From positions 1-64,000 of the IMG/VR virus record IMGVR_UViG_3300017991_000002: DNA of 64,000 nt. One strand, 5' to 3'. Position numbers and translations under genes: made by a program. Source of the stretch: a virus. Shown here one piece after another: positions 12,322-51,914 of this stretch. A model generated the notes under the pieces. The model was not told the DNA's origin and ran no database searches. It was given only the letters and a program-made list of their open reading frames with translations. The first letter of the stretch is position 1; every line of letters starts with the position of its first letter.

Positions 12322-12350
12322 AATATAGGAACAGTGGTTCTGGTTGTCAA
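12322..12350 (-). promoter_or_regulatory. Sigma70-type promoter
   Basis: TTGACA and TATATT with 17-nt spacing on the minus strand; the -35 box overlaps the stop codon of the gene at 12347. Confidence 0.65.
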
Positions 12351-12664
12351 GAATTCAATCGAAGTTTTCGATAACTTTCTCTCTTATTAAATGTGGGCCA
12401 GACGGTCGGTCTTGCCAGCTCTGCATCCTTGGGGTCTGTCGTGGACGTTGTTTGTGGGCGGAACATTTCCTGGGCTGCCTCCCAGCCGTTGTAGGCCATT
12501 ACCATTCGAACGAAGTAGTCGGGACGATCCTCGGGGAAAAAGTCTACTGGGGGGCCGAAGGAGTCCACCCACCAGGACACAAATTCCCGGGTAAAGACGA
12601 CGGACGGAAACCAGCTGGGAAGGTCCTCCGTGTTGAGCATTTCTTTCAGGGTTTCAGTGTTCAT
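12347..12664 (-). CDS. Tagged hypothetical protein (operon end)
   Basis: A 105-residue protein ending YRKLRLNS. It is the last gene before the terminator, and the tag is written CGA AAA CTT CGA TTG, codons that cannot act as a Shine-Dalgarno, so the motif here is not a by-product of translation signals. Body is Trp/Phe-rich (FVSWWVDSFG, DYFVRMVMAYNGWEAAQEM). ATGA overlap with the upstream gene. Function unknown. Confidence 0.7.
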   Translation of the reverse strand: MNTETLKEMLNTEDLPSWFPSVVFTREFVSWWVDSFGPPVDFFPEDRPDYFVRMVMAYNGWEAAQEMFRPQTTSTTDPKDAELARPTVWPTFNKRESYRKLRLNS

Positions 12665-13020
12665 TTCTTCACCCTCAGCTTTCTGTAGAGCTTCACAGGT
12701 TTTCTTTCCTCCTGTTCCTCCATCTTCATCTTGAGTTCTTCATACTTCTGTTTCAGGGCATCTATTTGCCTTCGTAATACCTTCTGATCGATCTCATTCG
12801 CAGACTCTTCTGCGGCAGCCTGCGCCAATAACTCTTCCGCCTCGGGCCCGTGCAGATTAACCATGCGAGGTTCCAGAACAAATCGAGTTATGGCCTGCGA
12901 CTGGCTACGCCGTCGTTCTAGTTCCACCCGGCACTCGTAGCACACGGTCACCCCAACGATCATTTCAGGTTGGCTCAATGCACCGCCGCACTCGGAGCAG
13001 CTGTTCCCTTCCACACTCAT
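12661..13020 (-). CDS. Tagged zinc-ribbon protein
   Basis: 119 residues. N-terminal treble-clef/ribbon CSECGGALSQPEM...TVCYEC (8-31) followed by a basic helix, a middle helical region and a coiled coil (about 75-110), ending LYRKLRVKK. The N-terminal module resembles that of 13885-14169. The tag codons CTG AGG GTG provide the Shine-Dalgarno for the next gene. A nucleic-acid or protein adaptor role is possible; unproven. Confidence 0.7.
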   Translation of the reverse strand: MSVEGNSCSECGGALSQPEMIVGVTVCYECRVELERRRSQSQAITRFVLEPRMVNLHGPEAEELLAQAAAEESANEIDQKVLRRQIDALKQKYEELKMKMEEQEERKPVKLYRKLRVKK

Positions 13021-13319
13021 TTGAGCATCCTCAGCTTTCTTTTGTGAGGTAAGTTGTCTCTTATTGGTTCTACGGTCTTGGATGGGATCCCGCCGTTTCT
13101 GTACTTTCGCAGGCGTTCCAGGATATTCCTGAGTTCTTCATTGGCCGCTTGCTGACCCCAGGCCGCTGTATCCCCATGTTCAAGGAGTTCCTGGACAAGG
13201 CGCTCTCCTATCCTTATTCGATCGATTACCATCCTCTCGAACGCGGCGAGGTTGTACAGGTCCATCAATCCCCCCTCAATGTCTTCCATGATGCCAATTA
13301 TTCTTCCAAGCTCTAACAC
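13017..13319 (-). CDS. Tagged helical protein
   Basis: 100 residues, all-helical by eye, ending HKRKLRMLK. Either GTG 13319 or ATG 13289 may be the start; neither has an ideal ribosome site. Stop overlaps the next ATG (ATGA). Confidence 0.65.
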   Translation of the reverse strand: MLELGRIIGIMEDIEGGLMDLYNLAAFERMVIDRIRIGERLVQELLEHGDTAAWGQQAANEELRNILERLRKYRNGGIPSKTVEPIRDNLPHKRKLRMLK

Positions 13320-13348
13320 CTTTTACGTTCTCCTACCTACTTCGTGAC

Positions 13349-13888
13349 TTATTCCAATCTTTCGAACACGGAAAAGATCCTAATTCGATTATTAAAGCCG
13401 CAGAGAACCCCTACCGCTGCTACGAACTTTGTTGACATTTCCTTCGGAGGGGAGGGAAGAATGTAGTGGATCATCCCAACCCTGCTTCCAGGCTCCACGG
13501 CATTGAGCATGTTCTTCAGCAATGCATTTGGCTTTGGGTAGGCCTCTCGTCCGACCTCGTAGTTCTCTGCATCCTCTGCACTGTATGGCGGGTCCGCCAG
13601 CATTGCCTTGAAGCCCGGGGGCAGCGGTTCCCTTGCATCCCGCAGGTAGTCTGGCCCGGTGGCCGGGTCGAGGTCTAGTGTTTTGTCCAGGGGACCAAAG
13701 CCCCCACGGTAAGGATAGTACCTCGCCATGCCGCCGCAGACATGGAGGACTGGGTCGTGGATGGATACCCCGAGCAATGCCCGGGCACGTTCTGGGAAGC
13801 CACCCAGGTAGGCACCGTAATACTTCCTACCGTCCTTCAACTTTGCCCGGGCAAGAATCCACATATCAGTTATTGGCCTGTAGCTCAT
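13349..13888 (-). CDS. DNA methyltransferase-like (DPPY) protein
   Basis: 179 residues with ADPPYSAEDAENYEVG at about 113-128, the DPPY motif IV of amino-methyltransferases acting on adenine N6 or cytosine N4, and a preceding VLHVCGGMARYYPY region that could be the SAM-binding strand. The C-terminal MIHYILPSPP fits a later strand. The FxGxG motif I is not clear, and the protein is shorter than typical methylases, so activity is uncertain. It lacks the RKLR tag. ATGA overlap with the upstream gene. Confidence 0.55.
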   Translation of the reverse strand: MSYRPITDMWILARAKLKDGRKYYGAYLGGFPERARALLGVSIHDPVLHVCGGMARYYPYRGGFGPLDKTLDLDPATGPDYLRDAREPLPPGFKAMLADPPYSAEDAENYEVGREAYPKPNALLKNMLNAVEPGSRVGMIHYILPSPPKEMSTKFVAAVGVLCGFNNRIRIFSVFERLE

Positions 13889-14169
13889 TTTGTCCTCCTT
13901 ACTCTCAACTTTCTATAAGGTTTGCAGGATTTTTTGGTCTTCTTGGACCGCAGGGGTCTTTCCTGCCGTTCATCATTCATCTCTTTCCTGAGCTCCCTTT
14001 TCATCGCCTCGTAAAAGCCAGCCATATCAGGCTCCTCCCCATAAAAATAGCGGCGGCAATTGGTACACATAGTCACCCCGGACGCCCGTTCGTACTCATT
14101 CAGATCGTCCCCGCACTCGGAGCACCGGTGGCTCTCCTCCTCGAACATCGTGTCGACTGCAATGCTCAT
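13885..14169 (-). CDS. Tagged zinc-ribbon protein
   Basis: 94 residues. CSECGDDLNEYERASGVTMC...C (about 16-38) forms a zinc ribbon like that at 12661-13020. Ends YRKLRVRRTK. Here the leucine-arginine codons are TTG AGA, and the Shine-Dalgarno of the next gene (AAGGAGG) is supplied by the two following arginines, so the tag is kept although its own codons are not the ribosome site. Confidence 0.7.
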   Translation of the reverse strand: MSIAVDTMFEEESHRCSECGDDLNEYERASGVTMCTNCRRYFYGEEPDMAGFYEAMKRELRKEMNDERQERPLRSKKTKKSCKPYRKLRVRRTK

Positions 14170-14471
14170 CGGTCCCCCATATTGAGTCTTCTTCCCGGAC
14201 GCCGGTGTTCTTCCTCACTCAGTTCAGGATGTTCAATTTCCTCCAGTTCTGAAAGGTCTATCCCAAACTCTTCCAGGAGCGGACAGTCCTCATAATTGCA
14301 CGGTGTGCGGGCATGTCTACATCGAGTAGTGTAGTTGGGATTCCTTGGCTGGGTCTCTAACTCTGCTGTAACATAGGTGGTATGTATGCCAACCGTTGCG
14401 TACGGACAAATCCCTTTGGAGTCAGCCATTCTTTCAACAAAATCAACAATCTTTCTTACATTCGGTTTCAT
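14166..14471 (-). CDS. Tagged Cys-rich protein, paralogue of 35395-35628
   Basis: 101 residues. Pattern VDFVERMADSKGICPY, then C..., RCRHARTPCNYEDCPLLEEF is shared with the untagged protein at 35395-35628, indicating paralogy and probable metal binding. The C-terminus extends with an acidic linker and ends GRRLNMGDR, a divergent tag (N in place of R). Confidence 0.7.
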   Translation of the reverse strand: MKPNVRKIVDFVERMADSKGICPYATVGIHTTYVTAELETQPRNPNYTTRCRHARTPCNYEDCPLLEEFGIDLSELEEIEHPELSEEEHRRPGRRLNMGDR

Positions 14472-15031
14472 CTATTTAACCTCAGCTTTCTTTTGTAGTC
14501 CTTGGGCGCGGGGGTAGGAGTACAGAAGGTCCCTATTCTACGAAGGATTTCTTCAACTGCTGCTCGTACTCGTTCCTCCAACCGCTCTTGGGTATCCCTC
14601 AGGGAGGTTTCGAGGTCGAGGTCTTTTGATTCTCTTGTTCCCATGGATGTTGTCCACAGCCGGATTGCTCCATACCGGGTATAGGGAACCATTGGGACAA
14701 AGCGGACCCACGGGCTACGGCAGTTCGACGGGGTAGAGGACCGGGAGATTTGATCAATCTCATCGAGGAGTTCTGAGATAGTATCGTTACTGATCTCGAC
14801 ACAAAAGAGGTAGATCTTACCATCACTACCTTGGAATGCTGTATGTACCGCGATCACCGCTCCCAGAAACCTCTCGACGATGCTGTCGAGACTCTCAAAT
14901 TCCCTACACCTTCCTATGCAGGGACGTCGGTAGAAGCAATCGGACTGATGTCGCATATGGATTACAGTAAGGCCGGCTTCTCTCAAGGTATTAATAATGT
15001 TTGGGAGTCTTACCATTTTTGGGGTTTTCAT
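14468..15031 (-). CDS. Tagged hypothetical protein
   Basis: 187 residues, mixed alpha/beta, with a Cys-containing segment CFYRRPCIGRC (about 31-41) and a helical C-terminal region before KDYKRKLRLNR. The codons CTG AGG of the tag are the ribosome site for the following ATG. No family recognised. Confidence 0.65.
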   Translation of the reverse strand: MKTPKMVRLPNIINTLREAGLTVIHMRHQSDCFYRRPCIGRCREFESLDSIVERFLGAVIAVHTAFQGSDGKIYLFCVEISNDTISELLDEIDQISRSSTPSNCRSPWVRFVPMVPYTRYGAIRLWTTSMGTRESKDLDLETSLRDTQERLEERVRAAVEEILRRIGTFCTPTPAPKDYKRKLRLNR

Positions 15032-15549
15032 TTTCTTTCCCTTGTTTGAACGTTCAGTTTTCTTGTCAGCTTTGTTGGATTTTCAAGCTGGTGGATCCTT
15101 CTTCTTACCGTAATAAGATTGCGGGAGAGCAGATTGATCTCTTCTATGCAATGTTCATACGAAATGTACTCGGTTGTTGAGGGATACTTAAGGCATTCAT
15201 TCGCATCGTCTACCGCTTCCTTTAGCTTCTCAAGGATTTGGACTTCTTGAAGATATAACTCTTGCAGCCTTTTACTATTACCGAACGTCTTGCACGAGAG
15301 CTTATTGTTCCATCGACCCAATTGTCGGACCCGCTGCTCCAGTATTGCTTTCTTGCCTTCTTCACGGATAAGTTCCTCTCCCCAATTATTGAGGGTTTGC
15401 GGGGTTTCATTTTGTCGTGATTGCATAGGTTCTCCAGATCTTCCAGTCCCACAGTTTGCTTCCTGGTACCGGGCTAAAAATTGACGATACTTCTCGCACG
15501 TTCGATCGATTATTCGTGGGTAATATAAGTTCCTCATAATCGTTCCCAT
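15028..15549 (-). CDS. Tagged coiled-coil protein
   Basis: 173 residues, mostly helical with heptad-like stretches, ending TRKLNVQTRERK (asparagine replaces the second arginine). Start ATG 15549 follows AAAAAGGAAAAATA. A 77-nt gap upstream (15550-15626) contains only a possible 13-codon frame (MGSFVRDVKEAAR) after AAAGGAG; its reality is doubtful. Confidence 0.65.
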   Translation of the reverse strand: MGTIMRNLYYPRIIDRTCEKYRQFLARYQEANCGTGRSGEPMQSRQNETPQTLNNWGEELIREEGKKAILEQRVRQLGRWNNKLSCKTFGNSKRLQELYLQEVQILEKLKEAVDDANECLKYPSTTEYISYEHCIEEINLLSRNLITVRRRIHQLENPTKLTRKLNVQTRERK

Positions 15550-15626
15550 TATTTTTCCTTTTTAACGTTCAACGGGCCGCCTCTTTGACGTCGCGGACAA
15601 AACTTCCCATGCATACACTCCTTTGC

Positions 15627-15905
15627 TCATGCTCCTTGTCCTGTGTCTTCAATGCCCGGCAGGTGGGCATAAATATCAACCACTCCATCCATCACAACAT
15701 ACCTGCCGGCACCTAATCCCTCATGGGCGGCCCGTGCATCGAGTAGGTCTCTGAGGATTGAAATCTGCATAAGAGCATTGCTGGCCTCGATCCTTACAAT
15801 ATCATCATACTCGTAGTTAGCCTCAAGGATCTCCTGTGCCTCCTGAATCAGCCTTGCACAGGCCCTGAGTCGCTGCGCGCACCTTGTATGGTTAACTTTT
15901 TTCAT
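15627..15905 (-). CDS. Hypothetical helical protein
   Basis: Start chosen at ATG 15905 after GAGGAAGATC inside the end of the previous gene; 92 residues. Helical repeats (RLRACARLIQEAQEILEANY) resemble other small bundle proteins of the block. No tag. Confidence 0.6.
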   Translation of the reverse strand: MKKVNHTRCAQRLRACARLIQEAQEILEANYEYDDIVRIEASNALMQISILRDLLDARAAHEGLGAGRYVVMDGVVDIYAHLPGIEDTGQGA

Positions 15906-16134
15906 GATCTTCCTCTTCCACAACTACCCACGAAAACATCATATCCAATCGCAGTGTATCACTCTTTGGGTTGTCGAGCAAGTCTACGAAACCTACCTCT
16001 TTCACAGCTTCCATCATTAAAAACACCAGCTCAGCTTCTGCTGCCAGACCCTGGAGTTTTCTGATCATGTTAATTTGTCCCACCGGTATCAATACTGTCA
16101 CTGGTTCTTTCTTATCACCTATCATTTTTGACAC
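15892..16134 (-). CDS. Hypothetical protein
   Basis: Up to 80 residues (GTG 16134, or ATG 16125). Pattern VTVLIPVGQINMIRKLQGLA then a C-terminal beta-strand. The GTG lies within the previous gene's tag region, whose AGG AGG codons give the Shine-Dalgarno. Untagged. Unknown. Confidence 0.6.
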   Translation of the reverse strand: MSKMIGDKKEPVTVLIPVGQINMIRKLQGLAAEAELVFLMMEAVKEVGFVDLLDNPKSDTLRLDMMFSWVVVEEEDHEKS

Positions 16135-16459
16135 GTAGCCTCCTTACATACTTTGATGGCAGCTTGGGCTCTGGGCCTCTAGAGAGCTCATCAATCCTCT
16201 CAGCTATGCTCTTCTTGATCATTTTTAAATTATTGTACTCATTAAGTAGATTGACCTTCAAAGAGTACTCCAGACCAATCCGATCACGGGCGCTGACCTG
16301 ATCAATCCTCTCATACTTGTCAATAAGAGCATGAATTCTCCTGACAGAATCTCGTTGGGAGTTGTGAAGGATTGCAAGGATAAAATCATATGAAGCCTCT
16401 GATTTCTTTATCTCCTTTACAATATCTGCAACTGTAAAATCCAATTGAATTGTGCTCAT
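16115..16459 (-). CDS. Tagged helical-bundle protein
   Basis: Start at ATG 16459 after GGGGAGGAAAAT; 114 residues. All-helical with a long central bundle; ends KYVRRLRVKNDR. In this copy the tag arginines are AGG AGG and form AAGGAGG. The 67 nt upstream (16460-16526) hold no supported gene. Confidence 0.65.
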   Translation of the reverse strand: MSTIQLDFTVADIVKEIKKSEASYDFILAILHNSQRDSVRRIHALIDKYERIDQVSARDRIGLEYSLKVNLLNEYNNLKMIKKSIAERIDELSRGPEPKLPSKYVRRLRVKNDR

Positions 16460-16526
16460 ATTTTCCTCCCCATCACCCGCCATGCCCAAAATGAAACTCA
16501 TGCACCAGCTGAGTTGGGTCATTGTC

Positions 16527-16859
16527 TTACCTGTTTGGACTAACAATCTTCAACTTCCTCTTAAAGTCTACTGGTTGGGCTGGCTCCTTTTTCTCCCCAA
16601 ACTCTTGAATCCTCTTCCCGATGTTATGGTGAATATTTTCCAACTCCAGTCGACTGGCAACCATTATCGCTCTCAGTGCATGGAAGTCCCCAATCTCCCC
16701 GCTACGGCTACATTGTTTATATTCCCTGACTGCGGACTCTAATTTACAGGCCCAATAGTGTTGTTCATCAAACAGACTACTAAGATCCGGGTCAAAGAGT
16801 AAAGAACTCCTATCTTCACATAGTTTTACTGCCTCGTCAACTTCCCTCATAATGTTCAT
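16527..16859 (-). CDS. Tagged helical-bundle protein
   Basis: 110 residues from ATG 16859 (AAGAGGTGAT upstream). Helical hairpin with a mid-protein pattern LESAVREYKQ...HALRAIMVASRLELENI, similar in plan to 16115 and 17037. Ends FKRKLKIVSPNR. Confidence 0.65.
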   Translation of the reverse strand: MNIMREVDEAVKLCEDRSSLLFDPDLSSLFDEQHYWACKLESAVREYKQCSRSGEIGDFHALRAIMVASRLELENIHHNIGKRIQEFGEKKEPAQPVDFKRKLKIVSPNR

Positions 16860-16883
16860 TATGATCACCTCTTTTTCGTATCT

Positions 16884-17044
16884 TCAGTCAGGGGACTTTC
16901 CATTAATACTCAAAGTCGGTCTTACCTTCAGCTTCCTGTGCTTGTATTTCCTGGTCTATCTTTCACTTTTATAATCCTTCCCGCCTCTTCGAGTAGGGAC
17001 ATATAGTCTTTGAGCTCAAGTGCCCTCTTATATGCCTTAAACAT
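16884..17044 (-). pseudogene. Tagged gene split by a -1 frameshift
   Basis: From ATG 17044 a 38-codon frame reads MFKAYKRALELKDYMSLLEE then stops at 16928. In the -1 frame the same DNA continues through KYKHRKLKVRP, a good copy of the tag, to a stop at 16884. The tag has therefore been put out of frame, either by mutation, sequence error or programmed frameshifting. The start overlaps the end of 17037-17381. Confidence 0.5.
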
Positions 17045-17381
17045 TTGGCAACCTCAATCTTCTACAAGACGCCCTGGATTTTCTTGGCCTCTTACCAGCC
17101 TTCTCTAGTTCCCATTCCTTGGCCCGTTCCGAGGCCATGCGCTTGGTTTCCCTGCACAACTCTGCAATGTCCATAATTGTGTCAAGTCGATACTGAAGGA
17201 TAGGATCCGACGGGTTCCTTCCCGACCTCTCATATCGATTGGAAGCCCTCTCGATCTCTTCAATAAGATTTTTCCTCTCGTTGTCATACCATGAAAGAAG
17301 ATGAGCCAGCTCAGGATCAAATGTTCCAGCCATTGTAGCTTCCCGTATAATGTCTGCTGCTTCTTTTAATCGATCAGTCAT
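17037..17381 (-). CDS. Tagged helical-bundle protein
   Basis: 114 residues. Pattern LAHLLSWYDNERKNLIEEIE...RLDTIMDIAELCRE is shared in spacing with 16115 and 16527. Ends SCRRLRLPNV; TTG AGG in the tag is the ribosome site for the overlapping downstream start. Confidence 0.65.
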   Translation of the reverse strand: MTDRLKEAADIIREATMAGTFDPELAHLLSWYDNERKNLIEEIERASNRYERSGRNPSDPILQYRLDTIMDIAELCRETKRMASERAKEWELEKAGKRPRKSRASCRRLRLPNV

Positions 17382-17404
17382 TCAGGACACCTGCTTTCAA
17401 CGCC

Positions 17405-17803
17405 TCACTCGTTTAATTCAGGAAAGAGGTGAGCCACTCTGCCGATAGAATCCCGACCCGAGTCCGGCATCCTTCCCTCCTCCAATGCCTTCTTCGTCTC
17501 CTCCGGGATAACCTTTATATCAATCGAGTCCACAAAAATATTGATCTCTGGAATTCCACTATCATTACCGGACACCGTTGTCTCCGGATCTTCCTGCACC
17601 ATGTAAAATACTGAACCGCTGGAAAACGGCTGCTTTGCAATCTCCTCAACTTGCCGCGGTACCGACAACTTCCCAAAGTCAAAAGAGCATTCCTTCGGTG
17701 GCCGGGGTTCCAGGAAGTTGCCAACGTAATTCAACTCCTCTTTAAAGTAGTCAAGGATCTCCTGTTCGGTCCCTGAAATTATCAAATCTTTTTTAATCGC
17801 CAT
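17405..17803 (-). CDS. Hypothetical protein
   Basis: Start moved to ATG 17803 (GGAAGGAAAATT upstream); 132 residues, acidic, alpha/beta. No tag, no family recognised. Its leader (17804-17877) contains a 9-bp inverted repeat, GGGCCATTT...AAATGGCCC. Confidence 0.6.
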   Translation of the reverse strand: MAIKKDLIISGTEQEILDYFKEELNYVGNFLEPRPPKECSFDFGKLSVPRQVEEIAKQPFSSGSVFYMVQEDPETTVSGNDSGIPEINIFVDSIDIKVIPEETKKALEEGRMPDSGRDSIGRVAHLFPELNE

Positions 17804-17823
17804 AATTTTCCTTCCTTTCGGTT

Positions 17824-17852
17824 TTCGGGCCATTTATCAGGCCAAAATGGCC
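17824..17852. promoter_or_regulatory. 9-bp inverted repeat
   Basis: GGGCCATTT and AAATGGCCC separated by 8 nt in the gap between two genes, followed by two further ATGG/CCAT-type half-sites. Candidate operator or processing hairpin; no U-run. Confidence 0.4.
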
Positions 17853-17877
17853 CACAAATGGCTCATTTGGGTCATTT

Positions 17878-18111
17878 TTACTCTTTATTGAAAAGTCGAG
17901 CAAGGTGTCCTTTTCTTTCTTCCATTGCTTTATCAAGATCCAGCAATCTTAGCCATCGCTCTATCCTCTCCTCATCCATCTGACGAATCTCCTGCACAAG
18001 CTCCTTGGCTGTAATTGACAGATCCTCATGAATTCTCGCCCTCATCTTCATCGGTGCCCTTTGTTCTGTGTCTACTACGGACAAAATCAGAGATAACGTA
18101 GGTCTACTCAT
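17878..18111 (-). CDS. Hypothetical protein
   Basis: 77 residues from ATG 18111, preceded by AAGGAGGACGACC. N-terminal strand MSRPTLSLILSVV then a charged helix. Could be a small regulator; no tag and no known motif. Confidence 0.6.
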   Translation of the reverse strand: MSRPTLSLILSVVDTEQRAPMKMRARIHEDLSITAKELVQEIRQMDEERIERWLRLLDLDKAMEERKGHLARLFNKE

Positions 18112-18304
18112 GGTCGTCCTCCTTAGGGTCGGTAGCATCCTCAAATTCGAGACAGGTCCCGGTTATCGGCCCTCCAACCGGACGACGCTCCCCCGCGGAA
18201 AGCATACAAAGAAATATTTCCGGATGACCAACCAAATGTGCTCCGTGCTTACACATATCGCAAGTTTTACCAAGACGTATATTTTCCTCGAGTCTCCAGT
18301 CCAT
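18104..18304 (-). CDS. Small Cys-containing protein
   Basis: 66 residues from ATG 18304 (AAGGAGGTTGACATA). TCDMCKHGAHLVG...FLCML...GTCLEF gives four cysteines that could bind metal. Acidic C-terminus. Follows the structured element 18396-18526 in the direction of transcription. Confidence 0.6.
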   Translation of the reverse strand: MDWRLEENIRLGKTCDMCKHGAHLVGHPEIFLCMLSAGERRPVGGPITGTCLEFEDATDPKEDDHE

Positions 18305-18395
18305 TATGTCAACCTCCTTGACCATGACCTTATCAGACTCACTACTGTGACAAATGATTTGGCTCGTCTGCTCATTTATTCCCCCTAAAAAATAA

Positions 18396-18526
18396 GAGGT
18401 GGGCCGGGCGCTACTCCGGCTGGCTTAAAAGGCCTCAGCCTCGGGTTACATCACGTATAGTCCCGTCAAGGACGACCCCGATATTCTGCGACGGCTTAGC
18501 GTGTCTGCTTTCCACGCCGCCACCTC
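18396..18526 (-). ncRNA. Candidate structured RNA, 131 nt
   Basis: A GC-rich intercistronic element whose ends pair perfectly (GAGGTGG with CCACCTC). Inside are GCGTG...CACGC, TCGGG...CCCGA and GCCGG...CCGGC helices, giving a multibranch junction. The flanking DNA is AT-richer and coding. Strand is inferred from the operon. Not matched to any riboswitch or ribozyme I know; it could be a cis-regulatory or processed RNA. Confidence 0.55.
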
Positions 18527-18815
18527 ATAATATTTCAGTAACCTTACCATATACCCGTTTCGTCCATCCATTGATCCTGCCATGATTATTTCCTATTAGG
18601 CAGCCTCTTTTGTCGTTCTTGGCCTTTACCAGATGGGTATAGAAGTTGCCCTTGACCTTACAATAAACAATGTCCCCAACCTCAACTTCCTCCCAAGTTG
18701 CCGGGGAGAGCTTCACCGGCTGCCGAGACTTCAGGATCGGGGTCATAGAGTTTCCGGGTTCCTTGGAAACAACGATCTCACCTGCTAACAATTTTTGTGC
18801 TTTGATATTATTCAT
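18525..18815 (-). CDS. S24/S26 peptidase-like (LexA/signal-peptidase fold) protein
   Basis: 96 residues if started at ATG 18815; a longer start at TTG 18857 is possible. PGNSMTPILKSRQPV has the catalytic-type serine (S-M-x-P), EVEVGDIVYCKVKGNFYTH is the conserved following strand, and LVKAKNDKRGCLIGN supplies a possible general-base lysine. There is no helix-turn-helix, so it is a stand-alone peptidase-like domain as in some phages, perhaps cleaving or mimicking a repressor. Untagged. Confidence 0.65.
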   Translation of the reverse strand: MNNIKAQKLLAGEIVVSKEPGNSMTPILKSRQPVKLSPATWEEVEVGDIVYCKVKGNFYTHLVKAKNDKRGCLIGNNHGRINGWTKRVYGKVTEIL

Positions 18816-18859
18816 TAGGTTTTTATAACCCTCCCGTGTCCTCGAGATCTTCTTCAATG

Positions 18860-19042
18860 TCAGGGCAAAAAACCATCAACAATTTCGGCATTTTCAAACG
18901 GCCTGAATTTTCTCGCCTCAGCCAATGCCGCAAGTGCATCTTTGATATTGTCATAATTCTTCGCGTTCTCTTCGACAGTGGTTCGCGGTGGATCGCCTTC
19001 GCCATCGGCAATCCACACCCCTTTTTCTAATAATACTTTCAT
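18860..19042 (-). CDS. 60-residue hypothetical protein
   Basis: ATG 19042 overlaps the preceding stop region (ATAAGATG). Alpha/beta, with a helix NYDNIKDALAALAEARKFRP. Unknown, untagged. Confidence 0.5.
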   Translation of the reverse strand: MKVLLEKGVWIADGEGDPPRTTVEENAKNYDNIKDALAALAEARKFRPFENAEIVDGFLP

Positions 19043-19043
19043 C

Positions 19044-19514
19044 TTATTTCCCGCTTTCTTTACATTTTTCAGGAGTGCTGAAAATATCCCCTACCACCTT
19101 ATGAAGAACATTCGTTCCACTCCGCAGTATGTCTTCCGACACAATATACGGGCCCAGTAGGTAATATTTAAACGCCGACTGCTTCTGATTATATCGAACC
19201 AATCTCAGCCCTTTATCAGTCTCAACAATATCCCCCTCATAAATACGAAGTCCTCGCCATGTATTCTCTTCCTGTCCCTTTCTTTGTTCCTCAGTCGCCT
19301 CATCCCACGAGGTGGCATCATATTGTCCAATGAACTGCATCAAGATAACATGCTGGAGCATACTGTCTGGCTCTTGATCACCCAGGATGACGGGATCTCC
19401 ATCTTCGTTAACAACAAATACTCCCAGGTCATCAAAAAAGACATCATAAACCATCTCTTTGTCTTTTGTAAGCCATGCCCGATATAGATGATCTCTTGGC
19501 TCCAATGTTTCCAT
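19044..19514 (-). CDS. YopX-family protein
   Basis: 156 residues. Matches the YopX family, widespread in phages and prophages of Firmicutes and others, by the pattern HVILMQFIGQYDA...RIYEGDIVETDKGLRLV, then a C-terminal strand VGDIF. The N-terminal RAWLTKDKEMVYDVFF is also typical. YopX folds into a beta-rich decamer; the role is unknown. Preceded by a good GGAGGGC site. Confidence 0.8.
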   Translation of the reverse strand: METLEPRDHLYRAWLTKDKEMVYDVFFDDLGVFVVNEDGDPVILGDQEPDSMLQHVILMQFIGQYDATSWDEATEEQRKGQEENTWRGLRIYEGDIVETDKGLRLVRYNQKQSAFKYYLLGPYIVSEDILRSGTNVLHKVVGDIFSTPEKCKESGK

Positions 19515-45144: not shown

Positions 45145-45205
45145 TTTCGCGTTCCTTTCTCATCGTATAAAAAACAGAGTGATCATCTTGCAGATTCACA
45201 CTAAT

Positions 45206-45245
45206 CTCTACTATACTTATACGTTTCTGGAACGAAAAAGGAAAA
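45206..45245 (-). promoter_or_regulatory. T4-late-like promoter element
   Basis: Minus strand CTTTTTCGTTCCAGAAACG, TATAAGTATAGTAGAGATT; identical to the 23838 copy across the core. The leader to ATG 45144 is about 70 nt, longer than at other copies, and holds no gene. Confidence 0.75.
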
Positions 45246-45247
45246 GT

Positions 45248-45943
45248 TTATTCTTTTTTTGCTTCTTTTTCAGCTTCTTGCTGTGTTTCTTTTTGGAGTT
45301 CCGAGGCTTCAACAAGGCCTATAACCTCGGTGGATAGCTTGGCCTTCTCCGCCAGGGAGGTTCTTTCCTTTAAAGACATCCCATCGGGATTGGATATAAG
45401 ATACTCAACCACACCAACCGATTCCATCTTGATCTTCTTATGATCCTCTTCCTTGTTCCACTCCAAAACCTCATCAATTCTTTCTTTCGTCGGAAGTCCC
45501 ATTATCCTATTCAGCGCTTTCTGATACTCCATCACCCGATCAAAGGATTCCTGGAGAGATGAGTCATCCATAACACCAGAGCGTTCAAGAAGATCCATCG
45601 TTGCCTCCAGACGAGACAGCATATATTGTGTCAAACCCTTGAGCATGGAATACTGTTCAATAAGGACATCAGCCGTGCTCTTCGTCTTTCCTTCAACAAA
45701 CTTGATCTGTTTATCCATTTCCTTCAATTTATTCTCAAACTCGAGCCGTGTCGGCGGCGTATGAAAGCGCTTTATTCTCTTAAGACTCTCCTCGGAAGAT
45801 TTCTTCCCAGAAGGCTGAGGTTCTGGAGGGTCTACCTCATCCAGAGCCTCTTTAATCTCTCTGGCGGTTGACTTCGCCTCCAATTCAACAACTTTATCAG
45901 ACTCATCTATCAGCTTAGAAATTTTCTCGTCTACATCTTTCAT
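45248..45943 (-). CDS. Coiled-coil protein
   Basis: 231 residues, almost entirely helical with heptads (FENKLKEMDKQIKFVEGKTK), a Pro-rich hinge and an acidic C-terminus KETQQEAEKEAKKE. Scaffold- or tether-like; untagged, first of the genes before the promoter at 45206. Confidence 0.65.
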   Translation of the reverse strand: MKDVDEKISKLIDESDKVVELEAKSTAREIKEALDEVDPPEPQPSGKKSSEESLKRIKRFHTPPTRLEFENKLKEMDKQIKFVEGKTKSTADVLIEQYSMLKGLTQYMLSRLEATMDLLERSGVMDDSSLQESFDRVMEYQKALNRIMGLPTKERIDEVLEWNKEEDHKKIKMESVGVVEYLISNPDGMSLKERTSLAEKAKLSTEVIGLVEASELQKETQQEAEKEAKKE

Positions 45944-45955
45944 CGTATCTCCAAT

Positions 45956-46189
45956 CTATGATATCCATTTACCTGCTTTAGGGTCCCATCTCCGTCTTTT
46001 TTTGGGGAGCTCAAATGCGGACATCCCTTTCTGTCTTCCCGCAAGCCTCCGAATAACCGGGCTTTCCCTGTGAATCGTCTCTGGGTCAAACAAACGGCCA
46101 AGCTTAAACTCAAGAATACCTTCAGCAGCTTCAGCCGGAGTAATGTCCTGACTCACAACACTATCAATATACTCATGTATCTCTTTCAT
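45956..46189 (-). CDS. Hypothetical protein
   Basis: 77 residues, helical start then ...RRWDPKAGKWIS. Untagged. Confidence 0.6.
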   Translation of the reverse strand: MKEIHEYIDSVVSQDITPAEAAEGILEFKLGRLFDPETIHRESPVIRRLAGRQKGMSAFELPKKRRRWDPKAGKWIS

Positions 46190-46252
46190 CTTCTGAAATC
46201 CTCCTGATTTTTATCACTATTGGCCTATAATACCACAAATAAGCCTATCTTT

Positions 46253-46825
46253 TCAAATGTTTATAATTCCCCTTCCTTTCAACTCATAAAAGATAGTTTT
46301 AAGGGCAAAAACATCAGAGTGGGCTGTATGAGCATCTTCCATGTCCTCATTCAAGGCACACTTGAACAATTCTCCAAGCTTCGGCCACTTATAGCCTCTA
46401 CCTCTTCCCCGCTTGGGAAGCTGACAAAACTCAGTAAGCTCACGCATCGTACAGTATTTCGGTATCGAATCAAAGGACTTAATAGCCTTCCCCAGGCCAA
46501 CCTTATAAAGCTCCTGCCTGATTATTTCTGCATCGAATTCGATATTATGCGCAATAACATAATCCGCTATCATACAATGCATTAAAAAAGTCTTCAGGGC
46601 CACGATAGTAGGAACCCCTACCCTCTCTGCATAAGCAGTAGTTATTCCGTGAATGTTCGTGGCAGATCCCGGGATCGTCCACCCAACCGGCTTGATAATC
46701 ATACTCATTGAGGCCATCTCCTCAGCCTCTTCATTGGCCAATAAAGAAGCCAACTGTACCATCTCGTGGTGCTCGTGCTCTAGAAGTCCACAGCTTTCTA
46801 TATCAAAAAACAGATACGTCTTCAC
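46253..46825 (-). CDS. DnaQ-family 3'-5' exonuclease
   Basis: 190 residues with the DEDDh exonuclease motifs: FDIESCG (D, E), HNIEFDAE with the second aspartate, and HSDVFALKTIF with the H-x4-D. The fold fits DnaQ/RNase T-like proofreading or RNA-maturation exonucleases. No polymerase lies nearby. Untagged. Confidence 0.85.
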   Translation of the reverse strand: MKTYLFFDIESCGLLEHEHHEMVQLASLLANEEAEEMASMSMIIKPVGWTIPGSATNIHGITTAYAERVGVPTIVALKTFLMHCMIADYVIAHNIEFDAEIIRQELYKVGLGKAIKSFDSIPKYCTMRELTEFCQLPKRGRGRGYKWPKLGELFKCALNEDMEDAHTAHSDVFALKTIFYELKGRGIINI

Positions 46826-46851
46826 AACAGCTCTCTCTTTCTAGAAGAACT

Positions 46852-47307
46852 TCACCGTGGGGTTCTTCTTACCCACCTATATGACAAAACCCTCTCTATC
46901 GGAAAGGGCATCACATTAAACTGGTTATTCTGATTTCCCCCCAGGATATAAACAAACTGCCTGCTTCCGTCAAGACCTATGAAAAGACCGACATGGCCAT
47001 AAGGGCTATCGGGAGAAATCCTCCACAAGACAACAACACAACCGAGGCGAGGCTCAGGAATATCAGTCCCCCATACCAACCAAGAACGAGCATTGGGGAG
47101 ACCTGTACCCCCACACCCGGACTCCCTCATAATTAAATTCAACGCAGCAGAGCACCAAGGAATCTCATCATTCGGCTCCATTCCTACAGACAGCAGATAT
47201 TCATCAATCTGAGGATTGCTCTCCGGTCCTGGTATCTCCGTTACCCCATAATGACGGAATGCCACTTCCAGCCAAGGAGGAACTATCAAAGATCTCATCG
47301 TCGTCAC
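46852..47307 (-). CDS. TIGR02594-type NlpC/P60-like wall hydrolase
   Basis: 151 residues from GTG 47307 (AAGGAAATT). PWLEVAFRHYGVTEIPGPES, EIPWCSAALNLIMRESG, GLPNARSWLVWGT, GHVGLFIGLDG...ILGGNQNNQF is a near-complete TIGR02594 domain, with the catalytic-type cysteine in PWCSA and histidine in GHVGLF. Used as endolysin or virion peptidase. Ends VRRTPR, not a tag. Overlaps the next gene by 104 nt. Confidence 0.85.
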   Translation of the reverse strand: MTTMRSLIVPPWLEVAFRHYGVTEIPGPESNPQIDEYLLSVGMEPNDEIPWCSAALNLIMRESGCGGTGLPNARSWLVWGTDIPEPRLGCVVVLWRISPDSPYGHVGLFIGLDGSRQFVYILGGNQNNQFNVMPFPIERVLSYRWVRRTPR

Positions 47308-47479
47308 AATTTCCTTCCCCATACTTAACCAACGTCTCATACCACCACGTGTTCACATAAGTGGCCCCTCTGAAAGGCTGCCAGCCTTCTTGCAACAGGG
47401 CTCTGACCTTCTTACAAAGGTCATCGTCCCCTTCAGGACTGATAACAACTTTGTAATCAACTATCCGCTTCCTCATCAT
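47204..47479 (-). CDS. Hypothetical protein
   Basis: 91 residues, MMRKRIVDYKVVISPEGDDD, alpha/beta. The start MRKRIVDY is shared with the possible peptide at 48080-48190. Overlaps both neighbours. Confidence 0.6.
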   Translation of the reverse strand: MMRKRIVDYKVVISPEGDDDLCKKVRALLQEGWQPFRGATYVNTWWYETLVKYGEGNCDDDEIFDSSSLAGSGIPSLWGNGDTRTGEQSSD

Positions 47480-47588
47480 CCTTTTCTTCCCTCACCACCG
47501 CATCCTTAGGGGTCTTAAACTCCCGAATAGGCCTATCGCTCATTCTAAGGGTTGTGGGACCAGGTCTGACTTCATTAATTTTCATCAT
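47457..47588 (-). CDS. 43-residue peptide
   Basis: ATG-ATG start after AGAGGTATTAA; reads MMKINEVRPGPTTLRMSDRP, then a charged helix ending EEADS. Stop overlaps the next start. Unknown. Confidence 0.5.
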   Translation of the reverse strand: MMKINEVRPGPTTLRMSDRPIREFKTPKDAVVREEKDDEEADS

Positions 47589-47612
47589 TTAATACCTCTC
47601 CCCTCAATCTCC

Positions 47613-48125
47613 CTATTGATGTGTCAGCACCTGAGCACCTATGCCATATTTTCCACTTTTCTTTCTATATTCATGTCCCCTCTCTCTCGATGCGGCAACC
47701 TTCATCGACTTAAGAAGTCCAGGCCGTTTCACTCCCTTGGTCCGTTTAATTGCCTTCTGCATGATCGGCTTCATTTCCTTTTTATATGCTGTCTTGAATT
47801 CACGCTTCAGTAGCTGTTTCCTCCTTTTGTGGGCTTCGGCAGCGGGCCAAACTGGCCTCGGATCATTTCTTCCCATCTTTTTACCTTGTAATTCAGTCCG
47901 CCAGTAATCTATATGGCGTCTGGCGTCTTCTTTTGCCCGCTTTCGAACCTCTGGATCCTTCATGCGTTCCCGCACCTTTTTACGTGCCCAAGCAAGTGCC
48001 TCTTTCTTACTCTTAAACTTGGCCTCTAATAGTTCATCAATCACGTCAGATGGAGGGTACCCATCGAGGACTGCTTCAATCATCTCTTGCGTTCTTGATA
48101 GTTCAAGTTTTTTGTCCATTCCCAT
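47613..48125 (-). CDS. Basic helical protein
   Basis: 170 residues, strongly basic and helical (KKEALAWARKKVRERMKDPE, KRTKGVKRPGLLKSMKVAAS). Could bind nucleic acid. Untagged. Confidence 0.6.
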   Translation of the reverse strand: MGMDKKLELSRTQEMIEAVLDGYPPSDVIDELLEAKFKSKKEALAWARKKVRERMKDPEVRKRAKEDARRHIDYWRTELQGKKMGRNDPRPVWPAAEAHKRRKQLLKREFKTAYKKEMKPIMQKAIKRTKGVKRPGLLKSMKVAASRERGHEYRKKSGKYGIGAQVLTHQ

Positions 48126-48190
48126 ACTCCTGGTTCTGCCTTCCCTGGGAAGGTTACGTTTTCCCCGTAATCAACTATCTTCTTTCTCAT
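48080..48190 (-). CDS. Possible 36-residue peptide
   Basis: Frame MRKKIVDYGENVTFPGKAEP overlapping the start of 47613-48125. Its N-terminus resembles that of 47204-47479, suggesting a duplicated fragment. May not be expressed. Confidence 0.35.
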   Translation of the reverse strand: MRKKIVDYGENVTFPGKAEPGVWEWTKNLNYQERKR

Positions 48191-48341
48191 CTTCTCTTTC
48201 TTCCCTCACCACCACCTGCAACGCCTGCAACTGGGTCATGAAAGCTTCTACCTCTACCCACGGCTTTGTCTTAAGATAAGAGAACAGAGACCTCAGCAAT
48301 GCAGCAGGGATAATGAAATTTGTTTCATCCATCTTACTCAT
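48171..48341 (-). CDS. Hypothetical protein
   Basis: 56 residues from ATG 48341, helical (ALLRSLFSYLKTKPWVEVEA), with an acidic tail. Overlaps the end of the upstream gene. Confidence 0.55.
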   Translation of the reverse strand: MSKMDETNFIIPAALLRSLFSYLKTKPWVEVEAFMTQLQALQVVVREEREDEKEDS

Positions 48342-49053
48342 CTTCTCTCCCGAAGAATATTTCTTCAATCTTGTCCTCAAAAACTCCGACAGCATCTCCC
48401 CACTCATCTTTATCGTCCATTACGGACGTTAAGTACCTGATACTGCCATAAAGCTTAATAGAGTCTTCGCCTCTTGCAATGATAAGGGTAAACATATTGA
48501 CCCCGAATTCATGCTCGGTGTTGAACACAATATCCTCGTCCTTATACAAGGCGTTAAGACTTTTCAATAACTTGCCCAAGGCGCTTCTCGCCTCATTTTT
48601 GTATTTCACTATCTTCTGATTAAACCATTCTTTCAGTTTAATCAACCCCTTCTTCATCCCAGCCACGACCCACTCAATACATAGGTCAATAATAATCGAG
48701 GCATAAGGTATTTGAGATGATATCCCTACCTTGGCCAAAATAACCGCAACGTTCGCAGCGGCCAGCAATTTCTTCAGGAACCCGCCAGACGCCAGATTAA
48801 CCAATGCTTCCGTGATCCCATGGCCAAACTCAACCCCCTTATCCTTGATAACGGCAATTATCTCTTCCTTGCTATGCTTGACTATACCATCATTGTTGAG
48901 ATCAACCTTTGATACGTTCTCCGCCACCAATACACAAATATCCCACAGATCCGACAGTATATTCGAACTTTGCCCCCTAAAAAAGGTCATAGCTGTGTTG
49001 ACAAATTCATCCTTACATTCCTGACCAGTGGTCAGGGAGATTGCTGTAGTCAT
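48334..49053 (-). CDS. Protein with hydrophobic helical core
   Basis: 239 residues. Residues about 85-140 are helical and hydrophobic (LKKLLAAANVAVILAKVG, SIIIDLCIEWVVAGMKKG), with an amphipathic helix after. Membrane insertion is possible. Untagged. Confidence 0.6.
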   Translation of the reverse strand: MTTAISLTTGQECKDEFVNTAMTFFRGQSSNILSDLWDICVLVAENVSKVDLNNDGIVKHSKEEIIAVIKDKGVEFGHGITEALVNLASGGFLKKLLAAANVAVILAKVGISSQIPYASIIIDLCIEWVVAGMKKGLIKLKEWFNQKIVKYKNEARSALGKLLKSLNALYKDEDIVFNTEHEFGVNMFTLIIARGEDSIKLYGSIRYLTSVMDDKDEWGDAVGVFEDKIEEIFFGREDE

Positions 49054-49745
49054 TTTCCTGACTCCTTCGATAGTATTTTTAGCTTGCGCCCTCGCAAATG
49101 ATCAGACGGGACAGTTCCTTTTGTCCTCAAGCTTCTGATACAATTATCGATGATTTTACGAAATGAGTCAAGTGAAATATCCTGATTCATGTAAGAATCT
49201 CTAAAAGGATACTTATACCACTGGATGCCAAATCCGGTTGGATTGTAATGAAAATTATCTTTCACCAGATAACAATCTGACTTATGACCTTCATGCCCAA
49301 AGATGACAGCATACTGCCGGATGATTACCTGCCTTCTCTCCTCAAGATCGCACGTACACTTCACTGCACAGCCATGCCACCAATCATCTCCTTCGGTGCT
49401 AAAACCATATTCACTATAAAGGATCCTCATTTGAGCGAGCCAATTTTCCACATGGGACAGGCCTCTAAAGGAGTCATCTATCCTCCTATACTTGGTGTGG
49501 AAACAATGTGCACGATGTGCAAGATCTTGATAAGACCGATGACCGTCATCAACATTATTCCAACCACACGTGCAGTCACCCCACCAATAAGGAAAAATCC
49601 AGAAAGTATCGTTCTCAAATTCATCTTGATAATCAATGCCGGTCACAGGCCACAGCCTTTGAAACTCCTCCTCCCAGCCCTTCCCCCGTGGAATTGATAT
49701 CTCCCCTCGAGAGTTCCCGAGGAGGACGTTTCCAAGATCCGTCAT
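49050..49745 (-). CDS. Conserved phage-type protein, tagged
   Basis: 231 residues. Cys/His pairs (CTCGWNN, HCFH, CAVKCTC) and GHKSDCYLVKDNF, GIQWYKYPFRDSYMNQ recall a conserved family in phages where H/C residues frame WYKY and DF segments; biochemistry unknown. Ends GRKLKILSKESGK. Confidence 0.55.
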   Translation of the reverse strand: MTDLGNVLLGNSRGEISIPRGKGWEEEFQRLWPVTGIDYQDEFENDTFWIFPYWWGDCTCGWNNVDDGHRSYQDLAHRAHCFHTKYRRIDDSFRGLSHVENWLAQMRILYSEYGFSTEGDDWWHGCAVKCTCDLEERRQVIIRQYAVIFGHEGHKSDCYLVKDNFHYNPTGFGIQWYKYPFRDSYMNQDISLDSFRKIIDNCIRSLRTKGTVPSDHLRGRKLKILSKESGK

Positions 49746-50245
49746 TTTCTGATCCTTAACTTTCGAAATAATTTTTTCTTTTTCCTTAGGAGTCCAGAAG
49801 TCATTTGCGGAGACATATGAAAGTTCTCAATAAAGGCGACATTGTCACTTGAAGGGGACATACTTATATTGACATTGAAAATATCCATATTCTCAACAAT
49901 ATTGGATTCGTTAACATTAACCGTTCCACAAATACTAAACCCAAACCGTGCTCCATTCCTCGCCATGGCAGTAATCTGGTCACCGCAGGGGGTATTAAGC
50001 ACCCGCACCGTACATCTTACCTTGCCGGAGACCTCCAGGACTAATTCTTCGACCCGATGAGATGTTCTGCAAAGAGGAAGAGTTCTAAAACCGGCCTCCT
50101 CCCCATGGGTAAAAGCCCCAAACTCCTCCCGCATTGAAGATACAGCCCTCTCCAGGACATCTCTCGGATACACACGACCGTTGCCATCGACCCTATCAGC
50201 TTCCAGATTCAGGTACCCTGTCAGTCGACCTTCCCTCTCGCTCAT
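49742..50245 (-). CDS. Prohead-protease-like protein with tag
   Basis: 167 residues from ATG 50245 (GGAAGATTATTT). GYLNLEADRVDGNGRVYPRD is the start typical of T4 gp21/phage maturation proteases; TSHRVEELVLEVSGKVRCTV carries the catalytic-type histidine and NGARFGFSICGTVN the serine. The fold cleaves scaffold and internal head proteins at (L/I)-x-E sites. It ends LFRKLRIRK, so an enzyme expected inside the prohead carries the tag. Confidence 0.7.
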   Translation of the reverse strand: MSEREGRLTGYLNLEADRVDGNGRVYPRDVLERAVSSMREEFGAFTHGEEAGFRTLPLCRTSHRVEELVLEVSGKVRCTVRVLNTPCGDQITAMARNGARFGFSICGTVNVNESNIVENMDIFNVNISMSPSSDNVAFIENFHMSPQMTSGLLRKKKKLFRKLRIRK

Positions 50246-50450
50246 AAATAATCTTCCTCTCCTCACGACAAATCCCGGAGTGGCATATCGTCCCATACTT
50301 CCTACAAATCAAAAAGGTAGCCCCCGGTAATGGGCCTTCACAGCAAGGACAGTGAACATCCGGAACGCACACCCTATCTTCCTTACAAGCAATCATCTGC
50401 CTGCGGAATGACCCATGCCTTACTTTATAATTAAGAAAACTCTCGCTCAC
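50196..50450 (-). CDS. Zinc-ribbon protein
   Basis: 84 residues from GTG 50450 (GGGAGGAATGTT). CPCCEGPLPGATFLIC...ICREERK gives a zinc ribbon. Untagged. Overlaps both neighbours. Confidence 0.6.
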   Translation of the reverse strand: MSESFLNYKVRHGSFRRQMIACKEDRVCVPDVHCPCCEGPLPGATFLICRKYGTICHSGICREERKIIYEREGRSTDRVPESGS

Positions 50451-50946
50451 AACATTCCTCCCCGACACTGGAAGGGCTTCCAGTGGAGCGATGGTTCTCC
50501 TCCCCCTCAGAAGAATGGAGCCGAAGCGTTCGTGAAATACCATCCCTCCGTCTCTCTACCCTGAGCATACCATCATGTGGCACATCGCCATTCTCATCAA
50601 TACCCCAATAGGTCTCCATAAAATCAGCCAAAGCACAGGAAATAGAAACTGTACGACGTTCTAAATCTCCCATCGACTCAAGCCTTCTCATAAGAATATG
50701 GAGCTTTTCTTTCAGCCTCCTATGTTCAAACACCGCCCTATCCTTTTCTCTGATGACCTGATGTACCTTCTTTTGATGATCCCTGTGGGAATCAACTAAC
50801 AACCTTTCGGCATCTTTAGCCCTCATTTGATACAGTGTATAGTTCCCCTCAAAAAACTTCCTGGCGGCCCTTTGCTGTAAACCATACGATATGGACGCCG
50901 CGCTAACAGCGATCAGAAATACTACCAGAAAAGAAACCATTGGCAC
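50431..50946 (-). CDS. Membrane-anchored coiled-coil protein
   Basis: 171 residues. N-terminal anchor MVSFLVVFLIAVSAASISYG, then a long coiled coil to about residue 110 and a low-complexity tail with SRTLRLHS at about 145, perhaps a degraded tag. Spanin-like topology, but no partner. Confidence 0.6.
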   Translation of the reverse strand: MPMVSFLVVFLIAVSAASISYGLQQRAARKFFEGNYTLYQMRAKDAERLLVDSHRDHQKKVHQVIREKDRAVFEHRRLKEKLHILMRRLESMGDLERRTVSISCALADFMETYWGIDENGDVPHDGMLRVERRRDGISRTLRLHSSEGEENHRSTGSPSSVGEECCEREFS

Positions 50947-51370
50947 ACTCCTCTCTAGAATAAACAGGCCCTACTCTCAACTTCCTAACCGGCACTGTGA
51001 CCGATTGTAGCGCCGGTTCTGGTGTAATAACATTCCTGCCGGAGTTGAGGATAGTAACCACTTCGTCCTCCCCACGTGTTTCCCGCCGTTCAGGGTTTCG
51101 AGGTAACTGAAGTGACTCAAGCGACGGAACATACATCATCCCGAGTTTCATCTCCTCGTAAAGTACCTCCATAATGGATCCTTTTCTGAGAGGAGGAAAA
51201 AACAAAAGGAAATTGGAGTCTCTTACGAAATAAGGACCCTTATATGTACGACCATCTGGCAAATCCTTCCCATCAATGGTAATAACCACCTCCCCCTTAA
51301 TGGGAGAGGGTAACCACAACCTATCTACTTCCGCTGCGATTTCATACGTTATTAGTCTCAATTCCGACAT
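50903..51370 (-). CDS. Hypothetical protein with near-terminal tag
   Basis: 155 residues, beta-rich (GEVVITIDGKDLPDGRTYKG). PVRKLRVGP lies 26 residues from the end; the tail reads into the next gene's start region, as if a stop had been lost. Confidence 0.6.
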   Translation of the reverse strand: MSELRLITYEIAAEVDRLWLPSPIKGEVVITIDGKDLPDGRTYKGPYFVRDSNFLLFFPPLRKGSIMEVLYEEMKLGMMYVPSLESLQLPRNPERRETRGEDEVVTILNSGRNVITPEPALQSVTVPVRKLRVGPVYSREECANGFFSGSISDRC

Positions 51371-51914
51371 TCTGCACCTTTAGCTTTCTTATACCGACCC
51401 CGGAAATCTTCATTTTTTCTATTCTTCCCTTCTCCAGAGTTTCCGCCTGTTTAATAATGTTCATTTCGTTTTTGGGGAGACAAATATCCACTCCAAGGAG
51501 TTCATATTCGGAGATGACCTTTACCTGATCAACCGCCCCAGCATACCCGTGAAGACTCGTCCTAAAAGGACAATTACCCAATAAAAGCCCCTGAAGTGTC
51601 CTGCTCCTCTCCGACAGGTCATCCACATTCATGTCGGCCATGACAATGTCCTCATCGTTAATCCAGAGCTTTACAAGGGTATGCGTTGTCGGTTCACGAT
51701 GCTCAGCCCGATGAGTATTGGATGTTTCAACATCAAAGATACAACACCTTGGATGTACATCTTCAACAACTTTTATAGCCTTCTCTATCTCTTCCCGGGG
51801 ATATATATACCCTGAAGAAGTAGGGGCACCAACTGGAATAACTCCGGCAGTTACAACAACTACTTTCCTCCCCTTCATGATATATTCCCAAATCTTCGGT
51901 TCTGGTATCTTCAT
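51342..51914 (-). CDS. Second prohead-protease-like protein with tag
   Basis: 190 residues from ATG 51914. SGYIYPREEIEKAIKVV, THTLVKLWINDEDIVMADMN (histidine), CPFRTSLHGYAGAV (serine), and YELLGVDICLPKNE follow the order of T4 gp21-like proteases, though the NGRVYP start is weaker. Near the C-terminus GVGIRKLKVQNVGIETNNV carries the tag. A possible paralogue of 49742-50245. Confidence 0.6.
   Translation of the reverse strand: MKIPEPKIWEYIMKGRKVVVVTAGVIPVGAPTSSGYIYPREEIEKAIKVVEDVHPRCCIFDVETSNTHRAEHREPTTHTLVKLWINDEDIVMADMNVDDLSERSRTLQGLLLGNCPFRTSLHGYAGAVDQVKVISEYELLGVDICLPKNEMNIIKQAETLEKGRIEKMKISGVGIRKLKVQNVGIETNNV

Follow-up and report, generated by a model that had tools for sequence, protein, structure and literature searches.

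A five-residue tag near the C-terminus of about 60 unrelated proteins of a large bacterial virus: a candidate docking motif

Terminal peptides that target a protein, or dock it onto another one, are a known kind of signal. The bacterial clamp box has a consensus of the Gln-Leu-x-Leu-Phe type, and the peroxisomal signal PTS1 must sit at the extreme C-terminal end of its protein. In phage T4 the capsid-targeting sequence (CTS) is an N-terminal propeptide of 10-20 residues that is removed by a protease (PMC5694885), and nuclear import in the Chimalliviridae works with no conserved signal sequence (PMC11087766). We consider here another such peptide, R-[KR]-L-[RKN]-[ILVM], hereafter the tag, in a window of 64 kb that represents the first 64,000 bases of the 205,367-bp virus record IMGVR_UViG_3300017991_000002. 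The record is that of a large bacterial virus, a myovirus with a T4-type portal, capsid and protease and an SPO1-type PolA, for which the viral and genome collections searched gave no close relatives. Neither this sequence nor its occurrence on a sixth of the proteins of a phage was found in any paper, and no article joining RKLR, phage and C-terminal came out of a literature search that left subscription journals largely outside.

The tag departs from chance by a wide margin. The whole record was read and 351 genes were called with a simple codon and ribosome-binding-site model of our own, so that gene starts are approximate. A strict form of the motif, R[RK]LR[ILVM], and a loose one, [RK][RK]L[RKN][ILVM], were scored in the last 25 residues of each protein, chance being estimated from 1000 shuffles of these residues at equal composition. 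The strict form is present in 45 of the 351 proteins, with 0.24 expected and at most 2 in any shuffle, and the loose form in 60, with 1.4 expected and a maximum of 8. An unbiased search in a reduced alphabet returned ++h+h as the top terminal motif, at 55 C-termini against 2.8 expected, any 5-mer of the shuffled set occurring 12 times at most. When the window was scanned in six frames, the strict motif was absent from the plus frames and occurred 39 times in the minus frames, almost always at gene ends. Relaxed variants of the types RKIR, RVLR and RKLT (RKIRV, RVLRI and RKLTV, for example) are enriched among the remaining proteins (13 against 1.5, maximum 7), mainly on the plus strand at 53-92 kb, and bring the total to about 73 proteins.

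Every one of the 42 minus-strand genes that a first-pass annotation of the window had listed as tagged does close with the loose motif within its last 30 residues, and in 37 of them the motif ends no more than 8 residues before the stop; in gene 50903 it falls 22 residues short of the C-terminal end. The plus-strand gene 62233, listed as well, indeed ends in a tag-like peptide, RKLRF, the Phe of which falls outside the class that had been given. Copies beyond that list lie N-terminally in 42187-42483 and internally in 22609-22854 and 40499-41098, and more C-terminal core copies appear in the remainder of the record. The bodies had been said to be unrelated, and this is borne out by a mean column identity of 6% across 64 aligned proteins, with only about four pairs of tagged paralogues at E<1e-3. 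The enrichment, the unbiased motif search, the codons and the literature search thus support a shared protein-level tag of an undescribed kind.

The composition of the tag is far from that of a mere basic stretch. Its first column is Arg in 61 of 61 copies, though Lys was permitted; the second holds Lys (43) or Arg (18), the third a fixed or near-fixed Leu, the fourth Arg (46), Lys (8) or Asn (7), and the fifth Ile (22), Val (18), Leu (15) or Met (6), column preferences which imply a specificity beyond charge. The residues that precede the motif are enriched in Pro (2.2-fold) and Lys (1.5-fold), and a Pro or a basic residue often follows it directly. From the motif to the C-terminal end the distance varies between 0 and 22 residues, a variation that, together with the existence of N-terminal copies, argues against the need for a free carboxylate. 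The tagged bodies are acidic, with a median of -3.3 per 100 residues versus -0.2 for the untagged ones, and two of them (66096 and 66254) display an N-terminal hydrophobic segment by which they are membrane-anchored.

It might be proposed that this is a DNA signal in disguise, the tag being a by-product of overlapping ribosome-binding sites or of some other nucleotide-level mark of gene ends, as the first-pass annotation had foreseen. In 22 of the 61 cases the Leu-Arg codons do lie 4-11 nt ahead of the next start, where AGG is preferred, so that the DNA of the tag can double as the ribosome site of the following gene, and there is a slight codon bias in the tag. The other 39 lie off the Shine-Dalgarno (SD) distance, several of them with no gene close downstream; synonymous codons vary, with 31 different 12-mers among 46, some tags being written in CGN codons while frame and amino acids stay constant; and the upstream gene is tagged in only 42 of 171 close pairs. 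Overlap with ribosome sites explains at most one third of the copies, at the codon level only, and leaves the rest aside. This account is largely refuted and we give it next to no weight: selection would act mainly on the peptide, any nucleotide effect being secondary.

The tagged genes are unevenly spread. They make up 42 of the 98 genes of a minus-strand block (12.2-52.1 kb), 14 of the 90 of a plus-strand block (53-92 kb), 5 of the 64 located between 92 and 136 kb, and none of the 83 of the virion-related regions. A promoter-like element, CGTATAAGTATA, with a T-rich stretch upstream, precedes operons of the tag block (at 23855, 36057, 41712, 45223 and 52448) as well as plus-strand operons at 58, 95, 117 and 127 kb, so that the tagged operons share it with replication genes. 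Between genes of the virion block (136-205 kb) it was not found at 0-1 mismatch, and the weaker matches there (2 mismatches) are, all but one, inside genes. This distribution makes the tagged genes look early or middle. N-terminal copies were counted in three proteins, against 0.42 expected (P=0.0085): MRKLNLP in the DNA polymerase (100878), TRRLNIP in the large terminase subunit (113693) and a third in gene 42187. In the two enzymes the motif lies in a stretch that precedes the part they have in common with homologues; this set is weaker than the C-terminal one, because the starts are predicted. Within the replication and packaging module only the polymerase and the terminase bear the motif, and no tag was seen at the ends of two helicases, a primase-like protein, RecA, SbcC, RuvC and a 5'-3' exonuclease.

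A few tagged bodies match known domains (DUF932, an ExoX-like C-terminal domain, Gp23 and the S77 protease). Two of these are copies of head genes. The gene at 134738-135736 encodes a tagged protein similar to Gp23 (E 4e-10, a match that clears Pfam's cut-off), and the true capsid gene, in pieces near 169.6-171.8 kb, is untagged; likewise gene 49742-50245 is a tagged, diverged copy of the prohead protease, which exists untagged at 172416-174005. Tagged copies beside untagged originals make the tag, as far as the sequences tell, a modular add-on to copied head genes. The protease copy has kept the Ser-His column and one Ser and has lost the His-Pro and Ser-Arg residues that form the family's conserved signature, so that it is probably inactive; inactive protease copies are known in SPN3US and its relatives (PMC5694885). 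The structural model of this copy finds its matches among viral prohead proteases; confidence is low in the tail, where the predicted local distance difference test (pLDDT) is about 50 against 80-95 over most of the body. Gene 51342 was tried as a third protease copy and rejected: BLAST against the protease gave no support, and to 49742 there was a single short match.

How may we understand a label common to some 60 otherwise unrelated proteins? It suggests that one partner recognizes it, either as an address or for docking. Our best reading, which we judge a little likelier to be right than wrong, is that of a short linear docking motif, specific to this phage, for one common partner. The observations that recommend it are a short convergent motif, flexible segments (as deduced for disorder from composition and one model) and unrelated carriers. 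The phage would have attached the motif, on a flexible Pro- and Lys-rich tail, to about 60 proteins (about 73 with the relaxed variants), mostly small non-virion ones, and apparently also to N-terminal extensions of the DNA polymerase and the large terminase subunit. A single partner, from phage or host, would offer a pocket that takes up the Arg side chains, the Leu and the following aliphatic residue, and would bind all tagged proteins, which would then be brought together at one hub inside the infected cell. A bolder proposal is a proteome-wide address system, in which one receptor reads the tag on at least a sixth of the gene products, DNA polymerase and terminase included, and in which adding the tag to copied genes, even to dead copies of head genes, moves their products to a new intracellular assembly or compartment. 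This we put forward tentatively, and would sooner expect it to fail than to hold. If true, these ideas would matter in that hundreds of small accessory proteins of phages lack an assigned function: about 60 of them would be tied to a single partner through the tag, which would also provide a portable peptide for sending proteins to a hub.

Several points weigh against docking on a common partner. We infer both the single receptor and the docking function from the pattern of the motif, and the flexibility or disorder of the tail that precedes it would follow from composition and from one model, that of a single protein. The predicted starts that give the polymerase and the terminase their N-terminal copies overlap the upstream gene, and the motif is unmatched in the distant homologues compared. 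The codons of the tag differ modestly from those of other gene ends (P 0.015-0.04), which points to some nucleotide-level selection. Finally, the collections searched yielded distant relatives only, and none with the tag. The search for relatives that the first-pass annotation had proposed was run with the RNA ligase, portal, polymerase and terminase, with alignments and with one DNA 14-mer, and it met distant phages, none of them tagged. The nearest (L023, 7.9 kb) has 36% identity at the terminase, and L017 proved to be a spurious match. Among 160 loci around the polymerase and the portal there were 6 tags, against 5 in a reversed control; five large distant relatives had neither a strict tag nor an enriched terminal motif; 120 contigs sharing that 14-mer had no tag; and in a comparison of 41 whole records this phage alone stood out (45 versus 13).

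The functions first ranked for the tag, as sorting signal, degron or nucleic-acid anchor, are not settled in that order, prohead sorting, nucleus-type import and a C-terminal degron having each been weakened. Targeting to the prohead, where tagged proteins would bind the core, be packaged with DNA and be ejected into the next host like the internal proteins of T4, has a natural setting in a phage with a T4-type head (portal, Gp23, head maturation protease), with tagged copies of protease and capsid and an N-terminal motif on its terminase; in T4, unrelated internal proteins do have one terminal peptide in common, and about 50 head proteins as well as inactive protease copies are known from giant phages (PMC5694885). 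We nevertheless find it unlikely, because the promoter-like element is common to replication genes and not found between virion-block genes at 0-1 mismatch, two tagged proteins are membrane-anchored, the virion-region proteins are untagged and the polymerase is apparently tagged; the T4 signal, moreover, is N-terminal and cleaved, and here 60 copies are C-terminal and 3 N-terminal. Import into, or retention in, a nucleus-like or other replication compartment could account for the motif on polymerase and terminase, and is made very doubtful by the helicases, RecA and other replication proteins that lack it at their ends, by the two membrane anchors, and by the reliance of known phage-nucleus import on a surface (PMC11087766).

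A degron, or a mark by which an AAA+ machine would select early proteins for removal or remodelling, is distinctly improbable as well, even with candidate machines at hand. An untagged BCS1-like AAA+ ATPase (24320-25777) lies inside the tag block, overlapped by a tagged gene (23904-24323), and a split AAA+ gene (58830-61375) lies beside it; the variable length of the tail and the N-terminal copies are unlike C-degrons, no ClpP homologue was found in the phage, and the apparently tagged polymerase and terminase are needed throughout infection. The strong positive charge of the peptide, set on acidic bodies, would suit direct anchoring to nucleic acid or membrane, yet an invariant first Arg, a near-fixed Leu and an alternating pattern exceed what charge requires, and Asn is allowed at the fourth position; we hold such an anchor to be highly improbable. 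A docking motif for one common partner is thus the reading that we retain, and the sites on which it rests within the window are collected in Table 1.

Table 1. Tag sites and promoter-like elements in the window (tail, number of residues between the motif and the C-terminal end).
Position	Strand	Motif or element	Tail	Remark
12347..51950	-	block of small genes		42 of 98 called genes with C-terminal core tag
12356..12370	-	RKLRL	2	codons CGA AAA CTT CGA; no gene within 170 nt downstream
12670..12684	-	RKLRV	2	
13026..13040	-	RKLRM	2	
13900..13914	-	RKLRV	4	
14178..14192	-	RRLNM	3	paralogue 35395-35628 untagged
14477..14491	-	RKLRL	2	
15049..15063	-	RKLNV	6	
16130..16144	-	RRLRV	4	
16545..16559	-	RKLKI	5	
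17049..17063	-	RRLRL	3	
19536..19550	-	RKLRM	5	SD-like GGGAGGGG positioned after tag
21798..21812	-	RRLRI	6	
22735..22749	-	RKLRV		internal, 41 residues from end; possibly chance
23075..23089	-	RKLRL	2	
23943..23957	-	RKLRI	12	gene 23904-24323
27818..27832	-	RRLRL	6	codons CGT CGT CTG CGT CTT
30005..30019	-	RKLRI	2	
31400..31414	-	RKLRL	8	
31855..31869	-	RRLNV	6	
32076..32090	-	RKLRL	2	
32360..32374	-	RKLRM	2	
32563..32577	-	RKLKV	1	
33891..33905	-	RRLRI	4	
34205..34219	-	RKLRI	3	
34431..34445	-	RKLRM	6	
34738..34752	-	RKLRI	5	
36399..36413	-	RRLRL	0	
36658..36672	-	RKLRI	4	
36867..36881	-	RKLKV	2	
37088..37102	-	RKLRV	2	
37314..37328	-	RKLNV	9	
38327..38341	-	RKLRL	12	
38577..38591	-	RKLRL	2	
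38877..38891	-	RRLRV	2	
39896..39910	-	RKLRL	1	
40685..40699	-	RRLRM		internal, 61 from end; possibly chance
41101..41115	-	RRLRV	0	
41747..41761	-	RKLRI	2	
42451..42465	-	RKLRI		near N-terminus (MKEKERRKLRIPP)
43168..43182	-	RKLRI	1	
44596..44610	-	RKLRI	6	
49074..49088	-	RKLKI	7	
49751-49765	-	RKLRI		degenerate prohead S77 protease copy
50972..50986	-	RKLRV	22	
51375..51389	-	RKLKV	10	body protease-like by eye only
62824..62838	+	RKLRF		variant; last five residues of gene 62233-62841
23844..23855	-	CGTATAAGTATA		promoter-like
36046-36057	-	CGTATAAGTATA		promoter-like
41701-41712	-	CGTATAAGTATA		promoter-like
45212-45223	-	CGTATAAGTATA		promoter-like
52437-52448	-	CGTATAAGTATA		promoter-like
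58346	+	near copy of CGTATAAGTATA		

The neighbourhood of these genes has features of its own. Left of the tag block, at 11220-11640 of the window, CCTATCAGTATAC / AACTTGATATA is repeated between genes, perhaps as another class of promoter or operator. A T4-type RNA ligase (26411-27520) and an AntA/AntB antirepressor (19949-20935) are both untagged. An open reading frame (ORF) for an HNH endonuclease (60051-60755) interrupts the second AAA+ gene, leaving the parts 58830-59993 and 60842-61375; no Rfam intron was found above threshold there, and a tag-like KRSLRYP lies near the end of the second part. The major capsid gene is apparently split too (L014:5647-8387, record 169647-172387, minus strand), with Gp23 pieces at 171151-171777 and 169647-170114, a TnsA-like endonuclease ORF (170235-171101) between them and a group I intron, RF00028 (E 7e-14), close by at 171885-172165. 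A protein located between polymerase and RecA (105103-106050; L011:1103-2050) has an acidic run, DEEEEEEEDVE, and resembles a single-strand DNA-binding protein; the gp32 model did not match it, in a search which, like that for the gp45 family, ran without a positive control. Two virion-region proteins (522-1166 and 2662-3276) share the N-terminus MASI(Q/R)EAVL(S/E), which recalls the T4 capsid-targeting sequence and is a separate candidate for head targeting. Among tail genes (L015, record 190752-191946), a receiver domain of a response regulator and a sulfotransferase-like protein were recognized by eye.

Set against described systems, the tag resembles several and coincides with none of them. 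Like the CTS of T4, carried by internal proteins, Alt and core proteins, it is a short terminal peptide common to unrelated small phage proteins, in a genome with T4-type head genes; unlike it, it has 5 residues, is mainly C-terminal and marks about 60 non-virion proteins. The motifs of sliding clamps (bacterial clamp box, PIP-box of PCNA) are also short and terminal, on flexible tails, with many unrelated clients that include DNA polymerase, but the sequence of the tag, with its constant first Arg, does not fit the clamp box, and a DnaN-type clamp (PF00712) had no match in the phage, a search that covers a phage-encoded clamp and not the host's, the control matching in 10 genomes. With ssrA and other C-terminal degrons it shares its place at the end of many proteins, and differs in being basic, in lying at a variable distance from the carboxyl end and in occurring N-terminally as well; no tmRNA gene was found in the phage. 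The T4 CTS, ssrA and the clamp box each differ from the tag in sequence or in position. In the Chimalliviridae phage proteins are selectively sorted through PicA, but the present phage is of another lineage by its polymerase and portal, and a marker borne by replication proteins in general is not what is seen; no compartment shell was identified, no search having been aimed at chimallin. PTS1 and the cargo-loading peptides of encapsulins have no likeness to the tag in sequence, and resemble it as C-terminal addresses read by one receptor or shell; if docking on one partner is true, a phage would have been able to evolve an address signal that bears comparison with the labels of cellular organelles.

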